Below are positions 31 to 22,830 of a stretch of DNA of 25,906 nt, piece after piece. Both the position numbers and the translations under genes were made by a program. The stretch covers positions 1-25,906 of IMG/VR virus record IMGVR_UViG_3300033143_002119, one strand, 5' to 3'. How positions within the stretch are numbered: position 1 is the first letter of the stretch; each line of letters starts with the position of its first letter. Source of the DNA: a virus. Under the pieces are notes generated by a model. The model was not told the origin of the DNA. It saw nothing but the letters and a program-made list of their open reading frames with translations, and did not search any database.

Positions 31-225
31 TTAGAGTCCCAGGCCGGCGGCTACCCCGAGGCACCCGTTTTCCCGGATGGCGTCGATCGCCTTGTTGCGG
101 AGTTGGATCGCCTCGGCCTTGGTCTCCAGGTCGCAATCGGCGCAGCACTCGGGCAGGCTGTCGATGATCGCCTGGTTGAAGTTGTAGGCGGATACGGCGT
201 GCTGGATTTCAGTGTTTGTCATCAT
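31..225 (-). CDS. small hypothetical protein with a Cys cluster
   Basis: A 64-residue protein of unknown function. Residues around 25-32 carry a CCADC cluster and the C-terminus has one more Cys; the rest looks helical and soluble, with no membrane segment. Two ATG codons lie in tandem (225 and 222). A GGAG ribosome-binding site sits about 8-9 bases before the first, inside a leader that is nearly identical to the one in front of the neighbouring 267-542 gene. It lies 41 bases downstream of that gene on the same strand, so the two are probably transcribed together from the sigma-54-like promoter at 592-607. The four Cys could bind a metal or be redox-active, but nothing proves either. Confidence 0.6.
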   Translation of the reverse strand: MMTNTEIQHAVSAYNFNQAIIDSLPECCADCDLETKAEAIQLRNKAIDAIRENGCLGVAAGLGL

Positions 226-266: not shown

Positions 267-542
267 TTAAAATTGACAAGCGGTGGAAAACCAAGGGCGC
301 CCCGCGGCCCGAGCTGCTTTGGTTGTTGGTTCAAGCGCCCGCGCCGCGTGCGTATCGTGAGAATCGCTCGCCCAGAGAAGCGCGTTATCAGTCACTTTTC
401 CGGGGGTAGAATCGTCGGTAATGCCGGCCCAGCAGGAGCAGCGATAAATCACCTTGCCATCGTCGCCGAAAACATCGGCGCGAAGTGAATGGATTGTATT
501 GGTGTGAACCCGGTAGCGATGTGAAATCTTGTTGGTGTCCAT
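267..542 (-). CDS. small hypothetical protein behind a sigma-54-like promoter
   Basis: A 91-residue protein of unknown function. The N-terminal half looks like a small beta-rich unit with a YRCSCWAG motif near residues 33-40; the C-terminal half is Ala/Thr/His-rich and ends in another Cys. No membrane segment or known domain is recognised. I chose the ATG at 542 because a CGGAG site stands 6-10 bases before it within the duplicated leader. The ATG at 578 in the same frame would add 12 residues but would lie only a few bases from the predicted transcription start. The gene follows the dyad array at 652-734 and the sigma-54 element at 592-607, so it appears to be expressed separately from the structural operon. 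Confidence 0.6.
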   Translation of the reverse strand: MDTNKISHRYRVHTNTIHSLRADVFGDDGKVIYRCSCWAGITDDSTPGKVTDNALLWASDSHDTHAARALEPTTKAARAAGRPWFSTACQF

Positions 543-548
543 GTTGCT

Positions 549-575
549 GCTCCGTGCGGTGTGTGTTGTGTCGTT
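549..575 (-). repeat. leader repeat, copy 2
   Basis: Second copy of the leader at 231-257, placed directly before the start of the 267-542 gene and downstream of the sigma-54-like promoter. The two differences from copy 1 are both transitions. Confidence 0.85.
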
Positions 576-591
576 CATGTCCCCTATACAG

Positions 592-607
592 TGCAACCGT
601 CGTGCCA
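592..607 (-). promoter_or_regulatory. sigma-54 (RpoN) -24/-12 promoter
   Basis: Read on the minus strand the element is TGGCACG, four bases, then TTGCA, which matches the RpoN consensus (TGGCACG-N4-TTGCW) at every fixed position. By the usual -12 spacing, transcription would start near 581, about 39 bases before the ATG at 542. It is intergenic and points at the next gene. About twelve fixed positions make a chance match in this window unlikely (roughly 0.003 expected on both strands if bases were equal). RpoN promoters require an ATP-dependent activator bound upstream; the dyads at 677-716 lie at the usual distance. Confidence 0.7.
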
Positions 608-683
608 TGTTTTTGGCCCGCACAAGTACGCGGAATCACAGCAACGGAAATTCACACCGTGAGACTTTCTCACCAGTGAGACG

Positions 684-703
684 AAAAAGTCTCAGCGTGA
701 GAC
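684..703 (-). terminator. intrinsic terminator 2 of the late operon
   Basis: On the minus strand GTCTCA, a 3-base loop CGC and TGAGAC are followed directly by five T. The stem is six base pairs. It is the second of two tandem T-tailed hairpins after the putative endolysin gene. Confidence 0.5.
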
Positions 704-704
704 G

Positions 705-733
705 AAAAAAGTCTCAGATCTGAAATTTGAGAC
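705..733 (-). terminator. intrinsic terminator 1 of the late operon
   Basis: On the minus strand GTCTCA, an 11-base loop and TGAGAC are followed by six T. It lies 30 bases downstream of the putative endolysin stop, a sensible place to end the structural and lysis transcript. The arms can also pair with those of the next hairpin, so alternative folds are possible. Confidence 0.5.
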
Positions 734-762: not shown

Positions 763-1512
763 TCAGGCGGTAACGAAGTAGGGGCGGTCGCCGATGTTAT
801 CGTAGGTCGCCCAGCACGGGTCGATCGCCGCGATACCACAGACGGCAGGGCGACCGGCGCGCACGTCCTTGGGCCTGTCGCTGTGCTGCCATCCCTGCAA
901 CATCGACCAGCCGCGCGGCAGCGGCTCGGTGATCAGCGCCAGGCGCTCGGCGTAGCTCGACGCGGCGGCGCGCTGGTAGGTGCGCATGAGCATCGCCGAA
1001 CGCATGTAGGTGCGCATGTGCGGCAGGCTATACCACTGCTCGCCCGTCAGGCCCTCGAAACCGATGTAGCCGCCAGGGCGACCCTTGCCCTCGACGCAGC
1101 CGGCGATCCAGTGGCCGAGCCCGCGCAGCACGAGCTCGGCGTCGGGCTCGTCGGTCCACTCACAATCGTGGTAGACCGTGGCGCCGTCGATACCGGCCAG
1201 ATCTGCGGCGTTGCGCGCGGCGTTGTAGCCCACCTCGCGGCAATAGTCGTCGTTGCCGAGCCAGTTCTTGCCGTGCATCCGCGGAAACTGGTAGAAGCCA
1301 ACGTCGAGCCCGACGGCGATGTGCTCGCGTACCTCACGATGCGATAGCGAGATCGGCCACTGGTCGTCCGGCTCGTCGTTGACCTTGCGGTCGCGGCGCA
1401 CGTAGCCGACCCGGAACGTGTAGCCCGCGGCCTTCATCGCCGCCGCCTGCTCCTGCGTGACGTGCACCGACGTGTCGAAGCCGGCCCCGATCTGCGGATG
1501 GCACAGCCTCAC
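763..1512 (-). CDS. putative endolysin, DUF1906 (Rv2525c-like) glycoside-hydrolase-like
   Basis: A 249-residue protein resembling the DUF1906 glycoside-hydrolase-like TIM-barrel family. Seen: GAGFDTS near residues 9-15 (strand-1 Asp13), then a helix with AAAMKAAGYTFRVGYV, the LSHREVREHIAVGLDVGFYQ segment (strand 3), an Ala-rich helix, and TVYHDCEW at 112-119 with the acidic residues expected at the active-site end of a barrel strand. Family knowledge links such domains to cell-wall cleavage. As the largest gene at the end of the lysis cassette it is the best endolysin candidate. The start is GTG at 1512, overlapping the previous stop as GTGA, with AGGGGG six bases upstream. The longer open frame to 1683 is only the shadow of the neighbouring gene. 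No signal peptide is present, so a holin or other export route would be needed. Confidence 0.65.
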   Translation of the reverse strand: MRLCHPQIGAGFDTSVHVTQEQAAAMKAAGYTFRVGYVRRDRKVNDEPDDQWPISLSHREVREHIAVGLDVGFYQFPRMHGKNWLGNDDYCREVGYNAARNAADLAGIDGATVYHDCEWTDEPDAELVLRGLGHWIAGCVEGKGRPGGYIGFEGLTGEQWYSLPHMRTYMRSAMLMRTYQRAAASSYAERLALITEPLPRGWSMLQGWQHSDRPKDVRAGRPAVCGIAAIDPCWATYDNIGDRPYFVTA

Positions 1513-1718
1513 GGCTGCCCCCTTGGCGCCAGCGCGACGGGCTGCAGCCGCGGCGTGCTGTGCTCGGCCCGCTCCCAAGCCGCGCAGCCGTCTTCGTGCG
1601 CTCGCACGGCCGCGGCGATCATGCCCGGCAGCGAGCCGATGAGCCTGCCGAGGTAGACGGCGGCGCCGAGCACGGTCAGACACAGCGCAGCCAGGGCGAT
1701 CCAGGAGGAGGGGGTCAT
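1509..1718 (-). CDS. small membrane protein, holin or spanin-like candidate
   Basis: A 69-residue protein with one strong membrane segment at about residues 6-28, followed by an amphipathic stretch (AAAVRAHEDGCAAWERAEH) and a Pro-rich tail. This layout (short N-terminus, one membrane helix, charged soluble tail) fits a one-pass holin, a pinholin-type partner or a short inner-membrane spanin; the sequence does not decide between them. The ATG at 1718 has GAGGTG seven bases upstream and overlaps the previous gene's TGA by ATGA. Its own TGA overlaps the GTG of the putative endolysin gene, so all three are probably translationally coupled. Confidence 0.6.
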   Translation of the reverse strand: MTPSSWIALAALCLTVLGAAVYLGRLIGSLPGMIAAAVRAHEDGCAAWERAEHSTPRLQPVALAPRGQP

Positions 1719-3895: not shown

Positions 3896-5636
3896 TTAGG
3901 GCCTCCTCACTTCGAGTCCATACCAGACGCCGCTGCACTCGCTGCCGGCTGCGCCGCTCAGCAGCAGGTCGGTGCCGGAGACAATCCAACAGTCTCCTGC
4001 GTGCTCGGTGACAAGCTCGGTCACTGCCGACGCTGCCGAGTGGTAGCGCCCGCTCGTGTTGTCGATCGCCCATGCGATATCGCCGGTCGAGACCGACGCA
4101 GACGCAGTCGGGATCACCGACCTGCCGGTGCCGGGCTCTTCGGTGAGGGTTGGCGCCCAGATCGATGCGGTGCCCGAGCTGCCGAAGAAGAACTTGAATC
4201 CGCCCCAACCAGACGCGTTGGCTGCCCATGGGTTCGTCTGAGTCATTGCACTGTGCGACGCATTGATCAGCGCCCACGATCCGCCAACGGCAGAGCAGTC
4301 AACTGTCCATAGCCCCAGAGCCGATCCGGCCGTGTTTTTAAACGTAATTACCCCAGATGAGCACTTAAGCCAAGCCCTTGGGTAAAGAACGGCGTCGTTA
4401 GCATAGCCAGCGCCGGCATACAAAACATCGTTTGATTCCGTCCCGAGCGTTACCTCGGTCGCCGTGTAGCTGCCGTCCGGGGCGGCAACGGTTGTGCTCG
4501 CGTCGGCAGTGCCTCGACACGTCCAATTGACGCAGTTGATCGCGGTGTTGTAGGTTATCCGATTCGTTGCGCTCGGCTCGGTCGGCCACCCCAGCCCCGT
4601 CGCGTCGACGGTGTAAGGAGTGAGCCCACCTGGCACGCAGACTGCGCTACCATCGGATGTCGGCCAGCACGCCGCGCCGCCGGTCTGCGTCCACGTATCA
4701 TCTGCAGCTAGCGGCTTCGCGTTGCTCGGGCCGCCAGCCGGGGGTTGCCATAGGTCGCCACAAAGGGATCGGTGCTGCGCCAGAGTGAGAGCGACGCCGT
4801 CATGGATGGCTACGCGAGCGATCCCGTGACTGCTGGCATAGGTGCCGAGATTTGCCCACCCGTGGATTCTCATGTCGGCAGTGGTCATAAATCCATCGGC
4901 ACCGCTCAGGTCGTTTGTGGCGCTCGTGTCGTCAGCGCCGTCAAAATAGACCTTGCCCGCGTTCGCGGTGCGAGAATCGAGCACGAGCGTCGCACAGTGC
5001 CAAGCCGCGTCTGACGCGAATGTGTCGCCATACAGCACACCATTACTCCCGCCGTTGTCAGTTACCCCTTCTAGACGGGTGGCGATATTGGTACGGACCA
5101 TCCACCCGGGGTTTCCTGCGCCCGTCGATCTCATTGTAACCATGGTCGGATTGACCGCCCCCGCCGGATTGCTCCGATAAACCACTGTCACCGATACCAA
5201 GTCGGTGGCCGACAGGGAGACCGCAGACTCGATATGTAGTCAGCTCGCTCGTGTAGTCAACCCAGCCCGTTGCGTCTCGCGTAGGCACAGACGCCAGCAC
5301 GCCGGCACGCGGCGAGCCGTATGGGGACAGGTGCCACCCACCCACGTCCCCGTAGTCGGTCGCATCGCCGCTCGATTGCTGAAAGACCCAGCAGTGGTCA
5401 GATCCAGCGCACCAGCCAGAGCGCGCAGGCAACGCCCCGAGGTCGCGGTCTGCGTCGAGCCAGAGCGATACGACGCTCGGCGCGTAGCTCGTGCCGTGCG
5501 AGCCGGGCGGCAACAGATCCTCCTGCGCGCCGGTCTGCCAGATGGCGATCAACGTCGCCAGGGTAGCAAGCCCGCCCATTGCGCCGCCGATAGCTGCGCC
5601 GCGCTTCAGGCTGCGACGTGTGCGGCGTCTCGGCAT
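3896..5636 (-). pseudogene. membrane-anchored lectin-like protein, frameshifted
   Basis: Two overlapping frames together make one coherent protein of about 580 residues. The first, from the ATG at 5636, has a very basic N-terminus (RRRTRRSLKRG), a Gly/Ala-rich membrane helix and the start of a concanavalin/LamG-like beta-sandwich. At about 5239-5200 the meaningful frame moves by +1 (one extra base, or a true +1 shift) and continues to the stop at 3896 with the rest of the sandwich (KVYFDG, GIARVAIHDGVALT) and a Cys-containing C-terminal domain. That domain matches the product of the 6118-7089 gene, including PYTVDAT and GWP.EPS..NR. The downstream part has no ribosome-binding site of its own (first in-frame start-type codon TTG, 5200). 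The break could be a mutation, an assembly error or recoding. Confidence 0.55.
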
Positions 5637-7630: not shown

Positions 7631-8944
7631 CTAGGATCGACCGGTGAACGGCAGCGCCAGCGTGTAGAGCGGTTTTCGCCCCGGGTCGGTGCCTCGGACT
7701 CGCATGTACGTGCGCGGAGCGCCGCCCACTTCGAGCGCTCGCAGCTTCGTCACGGCTGCGGCGTCCTGGCAGTAGACGGCCTCGCCGTCGCAGCAGATGA
7801 GCTCTCCGCTCTGCACGCTGGCCTTCGTCGCGACGGCGCCAGGGTGGGCGGCCGACGCGGTGATCTGCCAGAGCTTGTCGTTTTCGTCTGCGGCGTAAAC
7901 GAAGTCGCCGTCGCAGCAGAGCGCGTAGACGTTCAGGGTGGCGTTGCCCACGTTGATCGACCAGAGCACCGTGCCGTCGACGCGGTCGAGGCAGAACAGG
8001 TTGCGCGTCGGGCCGGCCGCCGTCGCGAAGTCGTCGGTCGCGACGTAGACGTGGTCGCCGTCGCTGCACATTGCGCGGATCGTCGGCGCGTTGGTGTCGA
8101 TCGCGACGGACCATGCCGGGGCTGCGCCGGGCAGCGCGTAGGCCCAGACGTCGTTGCCGCCGTTGCGGTCGCCGCCGCAGTAGCACTGGTCGTCGTCGAT
8201 CGCCAGCCCGCGCAGCTGCGCCGAGCCGGTGCTGTTTGTCGCCCGAAATGACATAGTAGCGCTGCCCTGCCAGATGTCGATATCACCGGCGCCGGTGTTG
8301 CCGGAGATCCCGGCGACCCTGCTGCCGTTGGTCACGAGCACGTTGTGCCCGAACGTTGCGCCGACGCTGGCGACGTTGGTCGAGTCACTGTCGCGACGGA
8401 ACAGCCCCGGGTTCGCGGCGTTGGAGACGTAGAAGATATGCTCGCCGCTGCAGCACAGCGCCGCGACCTCGGCTGTCAGGGGATCGATCTCCCAGATCTC
8501 CGATCCATCGTCTGGGCTCGCCGCCACGACGTAGTAGCTCGACGTGCCGGCGACGTAGTATACCTGGCCGCCGTCGCAGCAGATGTGCTTTGGGTTTAGG
8601 CCGCCGGTCGCCGTCGTCGTCGTCGTGTAGCGCTGGTCGAGACGGCTGTAGAATACGTTCGTCGAGTCTGGCGGGATCACGGTAAAACAGCTGCGCAGGT
8701 CGCATTCGTCGATCCCTTCTTTGAGCGTTGTGAACTGACGCACGAGGATCGGGTCGAGCCAGAGCAGCAGGTCGCCGAGTAGCTCCTGGAACCAGTTGAA
8801 CTCGTCGTTGTCGGGGATCTGGTTTGGTGCCCAGCCGTTGGCGCGCACGGCGCCGCCAGGGTCGGTCGATCCGTAGGTCGGGCTGCCGCTCGTGCGCCAC
8901 CCTACGCTGGCGTACAGTGCCGGTTTCGTAATGCGTTCGCTCAT
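7631..8944 (-). CDS. tail fibre with a seven-bladed Cys-rich beta-propeller
   Basis: A 437-residue protein. Residues 1-100 resemble a tail-fibre attachment end, with the pattern ANGWAPNQIPDNDEFNWFQ seen in many fibre N-termini. From about residue 119, seven repeats begin at roughly 119, 161, 200, 246, 289, 340 and 381 (about 44 residues apart). The best-kept ones share CCDG..VYYV, CCSGEHIFYV, MCSDGDHVYVA, CCDGDFVYAA and CCDGEAVYC. Spacing and the outer-strand pattern fit a PQQ/WD-like beta-propeller, so this is probably a receptor-binding fibre. Vicinal Cys pairs in repeated blade positions are unusual. The ATG at 8944 overlaps the upstream stop (ATGA), with AAGG upstream. Confidence 0.65.
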   Translation of the reverse strand: MSERITKPALYASVGWRTSGSPTYGSTDPGGAVRANGWAPNQIPDNDEFNWFQELLGDLLLWLDPILVRQFTTLKEGIDECDLRSCFTVIPPDSTNVFYSRLDQRYTTTTTATGGLNPKHICCDGGQVYYVAGTSSYYVVAASPDDGSEIWEIDPLTAEVAALCCSGEHIFYVSNAANPGLFRRDSDSTNVASVGATFGHNVLVTNGSRVAGISGNTGAGDIDIWQGSATMSFRATNSTGSAQLRGLAIDDDQCYCGGDRNGGNDVWAYALPGAAPAWSVAIDTNAPTIRAMCSDGDHVYVATDDFATAAGPTRNLFCLDRVDGTVLWSINVGNATLNVYALCCDGDFVYAADENDKLWQITASAAHPGAVATKASVQSGELICCDGEAVYCQDAAAVTKLRALEVGGAPRTYMRVRGTDPGRKPLYTLALPFTGRS

Positions 8945-22556: not shown

Positions 22557-22607
22557 GTCGTCAGGCTACCCGAGCTGAGCCGCTCGGAAAAGGGGCCAAC
22601 TTCGCCT

Positions 22608-22621
22608 GTTGACATGTTAAC
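22608..22621. promoter_or_regulatory. candidate operator dyad over the -35 box
   Basis: GTTGACATGTTAAC is an imperfect 14-base palindrome (six of seven pairs match) that covers the TTGACA box of the plus-strand promoter. A ribbon-helix-helix repressor made by the adjacent gene could bind here and control itself. Confidence 0.45.
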
Positions 22622-22637
22622 GGGGCGGATTGATACT
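22609..22637 (+). promoter_or_regulatory. sigma-70-type promoter for a leaderless gene
   Basis: A perfect -35 box TTGACA (22609-22614) is followed by a 17-base spacer and GATACT (22632-22637, four of six matches to TATAAT). The predicted start lies seven or eight bases later, at or next to the ATG at 22645. Confidence 0.65.
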
Positions 22638-22644
22638 ACCTGGC

Positions 22645-22830
22645 ATGCCGAAAACTGAGCACATCCGAGTCAGCGTGCGCGCGTGGTACGCGCTAAAACG
22701 GGTCCAAGCGTACGCGCCTGACTACCAGCGCGACAACGTTAAAACGTTCGCAACGCTGGTCGACGCGATACTCTACGGCGACGACGAGCTGCTCGTGCTG
22801 GCGCGTAAAAAGATGCGCGAGACGAACTAG
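22645..22830 (+). CDS. ribbon-helix-helix-like regulator, leaderless
   Basis: A 61-residue protein, the only convincing plus-strand gene. HIRVSVRAWYALKRVQAY (about residues 6-23) fits a beta-strand followed by helix 1, and NVKTFATLVDAILYG fits the turn and helix 2 of the Arc/CopG-like fold; C-terminus ARKKMRETN is basic. No Shine-Dalgarno sequence precedes the ATG, and the promoter at 22609-22637 would start the mRNA on or beside it. In-frame TTG at 22630 is not preferred. The stop interlocks with the portal stop. It probably represses itself, and perhaps also other phage promoters. Confidence 0.6.
   Translation: MPKTEHIRVSVRAWYALKRVQAYAPDYQRDNVKTFATLVDAILYGDDELLVLARKKMRETN

Follow-up and report, generated by a model that had tools for sequence, protein, structure and literature searches.

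A candidate late-to-early operon junction carrying a non-conserved sigma-54-like element in an uncharacterised phage group

Gene order and relatives of the window

The window analysed here covers one complete viral record of IMG/VR (25,906 bases). Nearly all genes are encoded on the minus strand, in the order terminase, portal, protease, capsid, sheath, tail and baseplate proteins, fibre-like proteins, a glycoside-hydrolase endolysin and two small ORFs. The late operon ends with a gene (763–1530, minus strand) for an Rv2525c-like glycoside-hydrolase (endolysin-type) protein (Pfam PF08924, E = 3.7e-7, over the cut-off). Downstream of it, the first gene (267–542, minus strand) encodes a protein of 91 amino acids and the second (31–225, minus strand) one of 64 amino acids, neither belonging to a known family. 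The leader of the second gene repeats ACACACACCGCACGGAGC, and the leaders of both small genes are near-identical, with AACACACACCGCACGGAGC before each ATG (236–262 and 552–573), a short ribosome-binding leader present in duplicate. Only 30 bp of the contig remain beyond the second small gene, and the early operon itself lies outside the window. By synteny, the 267–542 gene is probably the first early gene, and the two small genes together are probably the first early genes of the phage.

The endolysin-type gene and the first small gene are separated by a spacer of 220 bp (543–762), which is low in GC in a phage of 65% GC. It is one of only two gaps of more than 200 bp in the listed minus-strand gene set, the other one (22557–22826) containing a plus-strand ORF. 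This ORF (22630–22830, in the 270-bp portal/protease gap) encodes 66 amino acids and showed neither a convincing Pfam match nor a match among the loci fetched. An Rfam scan of positions 1–1800 revealed no credible RNA family, and a plasmid search gave no match.

Single-protein searches in IMG/VR found no relative of the 91-amino-acid protein and nothing for the endolysin, and the baseplate J search returned only another assembly of the same virus, ending at window position 7956. A seven-member baseplate alignment was dropped as a query because it was too diverse; a three-member baseplate alignment led to a first relative, G002 (IMG/VR 3300022688_000024, also L012). The second relative, L101 (IMG/VR 3300001815_000026), was found by the leader pattern GACATGARCGACAC...ACGGAG alone, and its kinship was confirmed by tail and lysis genes in common with the window. 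Besides these two, a looser leader pattern yielded chance matches only. A more distant relative, L094, has a different arrangement after the late operon, and the comparison thus rests on two informative relatives. No prophage relative appeared in two GTDB genome scans, hence no host was assigned.

The late proteins of G002 are mostly 50–69% identical to those of the window, and across these phages the identity of matched proteins ranges from less than 30% to 76%. G002 (33% identity) and L101 have homologues of the endolysin-type gene in the corresponding position. The spacer that follows the lysis genes of G002 aligns with that of the window (local alignment score 25, compared with a shuffle mean of 10.0 and a maximum of 16.5), including a conserved segment at 614–643 on the minus strand (TGCTGTGATTCCGCGTACTTGTGCGGGCCA), and contains a T6-tailed hairpin. 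Beyond it, G002 carries genes for a PD-(D/E)XK nuclease, a recombination directionality factor-like protein, a helicase and a primase-polymerase, that is, early genes. The late/early junction is homologous in G002 and L101.

Dyads and hairpins of the TGAGAC/GTCTCA array

Two dyads had been described in the earlier note as activator sites of a sigma-54 promoter. Both are exact, TGAGAC-GAAAAA-GTCTCA at 677–694 and TGAGAC-GAAAAAA-GTCTCA at 698–716, lying 21 bp apart with the second spacer one base longer than the first, but they are part of a larger array. On the plus strand, TGAGAC occurs at 660, 677, 698 and 728 and GTCTCA at 689 and 711. The half-sites at 660 and 728 had been overlooked, as had a third dyad, GTGAGA-CTT-TCTCAC at 659–673, and the alternative pairings that give T-tailed hairpins on the minus strand.

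Along the transcribed strand, the minus strand, the array reads GTCTCA-N11-TGAGAC-TTTTTT-C-GTCTCA-CGC-TGAGAC-TTTTT-C-GTCTCA and contains two tandem hairpins, 733–711 followed by T6 and 703–689 followed by T5. Hairpin 1 (705–733 with its tail; GTCTCA-AATTTCAGATC-TGAGAC, then TTTTTT) has a stem of -5.8 kcal/mol and a terminator score of +2.2. Hairpin 2 (684–703 with its tail; GTCTCA-CGC-TGAGAC, then TTTTT) has a stem of -5.3 kcal/mol and a score of +4.7; including the tail it reaches -6.5 kcal/mol, and none of 200 shuffles was equally good. Two T-tailed hairpins were obtained in none of 2000 shuffles of the region, and no plus-strand terminator passed scoring. The first stem starts 30 nt past the endolysin stop (763), directly after the last late-operon gene. 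The half-site at 728 has no partner as a dyad but forms the 5' arm of this stem, and both T-tracts directly follow a complete stem.

The array therefore looks more like tandem intrinsic terminators than like activator sites, the more so as dyad spacers that vary in length (6, 7 and 3 bp) are at odds with a single fixed dimer site. The stems have only 6 bp with three G-C pairs, which is weak for a phage of 65% GC, and because of this weakness we do no more than infer termination by the two hairpins. The third dyad, which no T-tract follows, is left unexplained by the terminator model.

The sigma-54-like element and the promoter place

At 592–607 on the minus strand lies TGGCACGACGGTTGCA, a match to the -24/-12 consensus of sigma-54 promoters that had been read as TGGCACG-N4-TTGCA at 607–592. 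This reading holds, as the element has no mismatch to TGGCACN5TTGCW and is the sole such site in the window, where dinucleotide shuffles give a chance expectation of 0.005 for the exact TGGCACGN4TTGCW and of 0.0075 for TGGCACN5TTGCW per window. The element scores 17.0 bits with a matrix derived from intergenic sigma-54 sites of E. coli (42 sites; PMC4591121 Table 1), which is mid-range for real sites. In other phage DNA (1.42 Mb), only four sites reach 17.0 bits or more, corresponding to about 0.07 per window-sized stretch. The match is unusual, yet it was picked post hoc from a search over many kinds of features. The position of the predicted start near 581 and that of the two dyads 95–135 bp upstream are arithmetically correct. 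It had escaped notice that no stop codon interrupts the ORF frame back to 623 and that the element therefore lies inside an in-frame open stretch.

The region downstream of the element is shared with both relatives. A leader, GGGACATGAACGACACAACACACACCGCACGGAGCAGCAAC, with its GGAG ribosome-binding site (543–582, minus strand) is conserved in G002 and L101, and the arrangement GACATGARCGACACA...GGAG...ATG is common to all three phages. GGAG is the best ribosome-binding site and precedes the ATG at 542; ATG 608 and ATG 578 were considered as likelier starts and rejected, the GGAG site fitting ATG 542. A leader opened by an upstream ATG in frame with the gene is seen in all three phages (window 542–578, L092 and L101; MNDTTHT.., MSDTQNT.. 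and MSDTENT..), and a longer N-terminus from such an ATG is conceivable.

Upstream of the leader, TATA at 585–588 (minus strand) aligns with the TATATA (-10-like) box of G002 and L101. The promoter place in both relatives reads GGGGTTGC-N19-TATATA, without the GG of a -24 element. The -35 and -10 boxes are visible by eye in G002 and L101, with GGGGTTGCGT-N17-TATATA in the former and GGGGTTGCAA-N17-TATATA in the latter, where the window has TGGCACGACGGTTGCACTGTATAGGGG. The intergenic regions of the relatives contain no -24/-12 element, the best matrix scores being 0.8 and -2.7 bits compared with 17.0 bits in the window. The -35 box of the relatives, in turn, is absent from the window, in which no TTG is found 16–18 bp upstream of TATAGG. 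Scored with an E. coli sigma-70 matrix, neither the window nor G002, the two sequences scored, exceeded the shuffle maxima.

The earlier interpretation thus stands in part. A promoter at this place, pointing at the small genes and separating them from the late genes, is supported, its place with respect to leader and gene order being conserved in two relatives. The sigma-54 type does not carry over, as it is absent at the homologous position in both. This absence speaks only partly against the element, since neither relative keeps the 91-amino-acid gene. Judged from these alignments, sigma-54 control is not conserved and would at best be a lineage-specific replacement.

The probable late-to-early junction and its comparison with known systems

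We consider it probable, though well short of certain, that positions 543–762 represent the junction of a late and an early operon, with tandem terminators followed by the promoter of a next unit that starts with the two small ORFs. From the observed hairpins, homology and gene order we infer termination, promoter activity, early timing and type of polymerase as follows. The spacer would be the place where, in a contractile-tailed phage, the late operon (packaging, tail and lysis) meets the early one, the two running on the minus strand. Two tandem T-tailed hairpins would end late transcription just past the endolysin gene, and about 80 bp further the next transcription unit, with the two small ORFs as its first genes, would start from a promoter that has its start site and leader in common with two relatives. 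The promoter of the relatives (GGGGTTGC-N19-TATATA) would be of the ordinary housekeeping type by its appearance, and the perfect sigma-54 element of the window is most likely a coincidence, arising in a diverged promoter that kept the TTGC and TATA pieces. We agree with the earlier proposal in placing the small genes outside the late programme, though not on account of RpoN control: they are positioned as the first genes of the next unit and, by this position, are probably early. Against the junction model stand the weak stems, the promoter of the relatives, which in G002, where it was scored, is not above shuffles, the missing -35 box of the window, the third dyad without a T-tract and the end of the contig ahead of the early operon. 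If correct, this reading shows where late genes give way to early ones in an uncharacterised phage group and compares the early promoter across three members.

It is doubtful, by comparison, that in the lineage of the window a sigma-54 promoter with a start near 581 took the place of the ancestral housekeeping one, with a host or phage AAA+ activator binding at the TGAGAC dyads (about -78 to -135). In favour of such a replacement are the perfect consensus match, which scores 17.0 bits with a matrix of real sites and is identical over 16 bases to the sigma-54 promoter of E. coli rtcBA, and its standing in the place of the -35 box that the relatives have and the window lacks. The start predicted from the element and the one to be expected from the relatives are no more than a few bases apart, and the dyads lie at the usual distance of activator sites (about 80–150 bp upstream). 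Of 5770 TTGCW boxes in other phage DNA, a single one is preceded by TGGC[AC][CT] at the correct spacing; TGGCACG precedes none of them. However, the element is not conserved in G002 and L101 although leader and promoter place are kept, and the dyad spacers differ (6, 7 and 3 bp). A search for the phage AAA+ activator that the earlier note had envisaged detected no sigma-54 activator domain (PF00158) in four phage records, which may be fragments, while the controls were positive. In E. coli, moreover, most bound sigma-54 sites are intragenic and most appear to be transcriptionally inactive (PMC4591121), which we count against the replacement. We found no phage early sigma-54 promoter in the open-access literature; a T7-like Pectobacterium phage has been reported to encode a weakly supported sigma-54-like protein (PMC7693777). 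The fuller scenario, in which the early promoter switched from housekeeping to sigma-54 at the same start site and the early genes are not expressed until a stress or nutrient activator of the host binds the TGAGAC dyads, seems rather doubtful to us. If true, it would mean a rare phage early programme that answers to the regulatory state of the host instead of starting at once on entry.

The array might also consist of operators through which a phage repressor or activator regulates the early promoter, whichever sigma factor this promoter uses. We think this rather unlikely. The three dyads, centred at 666, 685.5 and 707, are spaced by about two helical turns and have identical arms and A-tract centres, but spacers of 3, 6 and 7 bp do not suit one dimeric protein, and the distance of at least 70 bp from the array down to the promoter start is too large for repression by simple steric hindrance. 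Operators would also leave the lone half-site at 728 unexplained, which is accounted for as one arm of hairpin 1. The array occurs in neither G002 nor L101, and the exact dyad 18-mer is found in only one other viral contig of IMG/VR (L003), about the chance expectation. In this apparently unrelated contig, the 18-mer is intergenic (3960–4030) and has 8-bp arms (TTTGAGAC-TTTTTC-GTCTCAAA) within an outer inverted repeat, CCCTTATC...GATAAGGG.

That all of 592–716 is fortuitous, a chance -24/-12 match next to a functionless slipped tandem duplication, with the small genes read by read-through from the late operon, is very improbable: the two 21–22 bp units do resemble a tandem duplication with one A of slippage and the spacer is low in GC, but the hairpin-plus-T arrangement exceeds shuffles, and these phages, diverged as they are, share the leader and the promoter place.

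Among known systems, the closest counterpart of the element is the E. coli rtcBA sigma-54 promoter (PMC4591121 OS35), in which all 16 bases are identical to window positions 592–607, the four free positions included, whereas the flanks are unrelated. Since TGAGAC dyads are absent from the DNA upstream of E. coli rtcB, nothing points to an activator site in common, and we take the identity to be a coincidence. From sigma-54 (RpoN) promoters in general the element differs in being unconserved in relatives and in having no identified activator. The promoter place also resembles phage early promoters read with the housekeeping sigma factor, being probably that of the first promoter of a replication/recombination block, such as follows in G002, with TTGC(G/A)-N17-TATATA in the relatives and an A+T-rich upstream stretch in L101; the window differs by its missing -35 box and by TATAGG as the equivalent of the -10 box. 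The two hairpins, although their 6-bp stems reach only -5 to -6 kcal/mol and their tandemly repeated arms can pair in another register as dyads, resemble tandem intrinsic (rho-independent) terminators in that a stem-loop is directly followed by T5 or T6, twice, just after the last gene of an operon.
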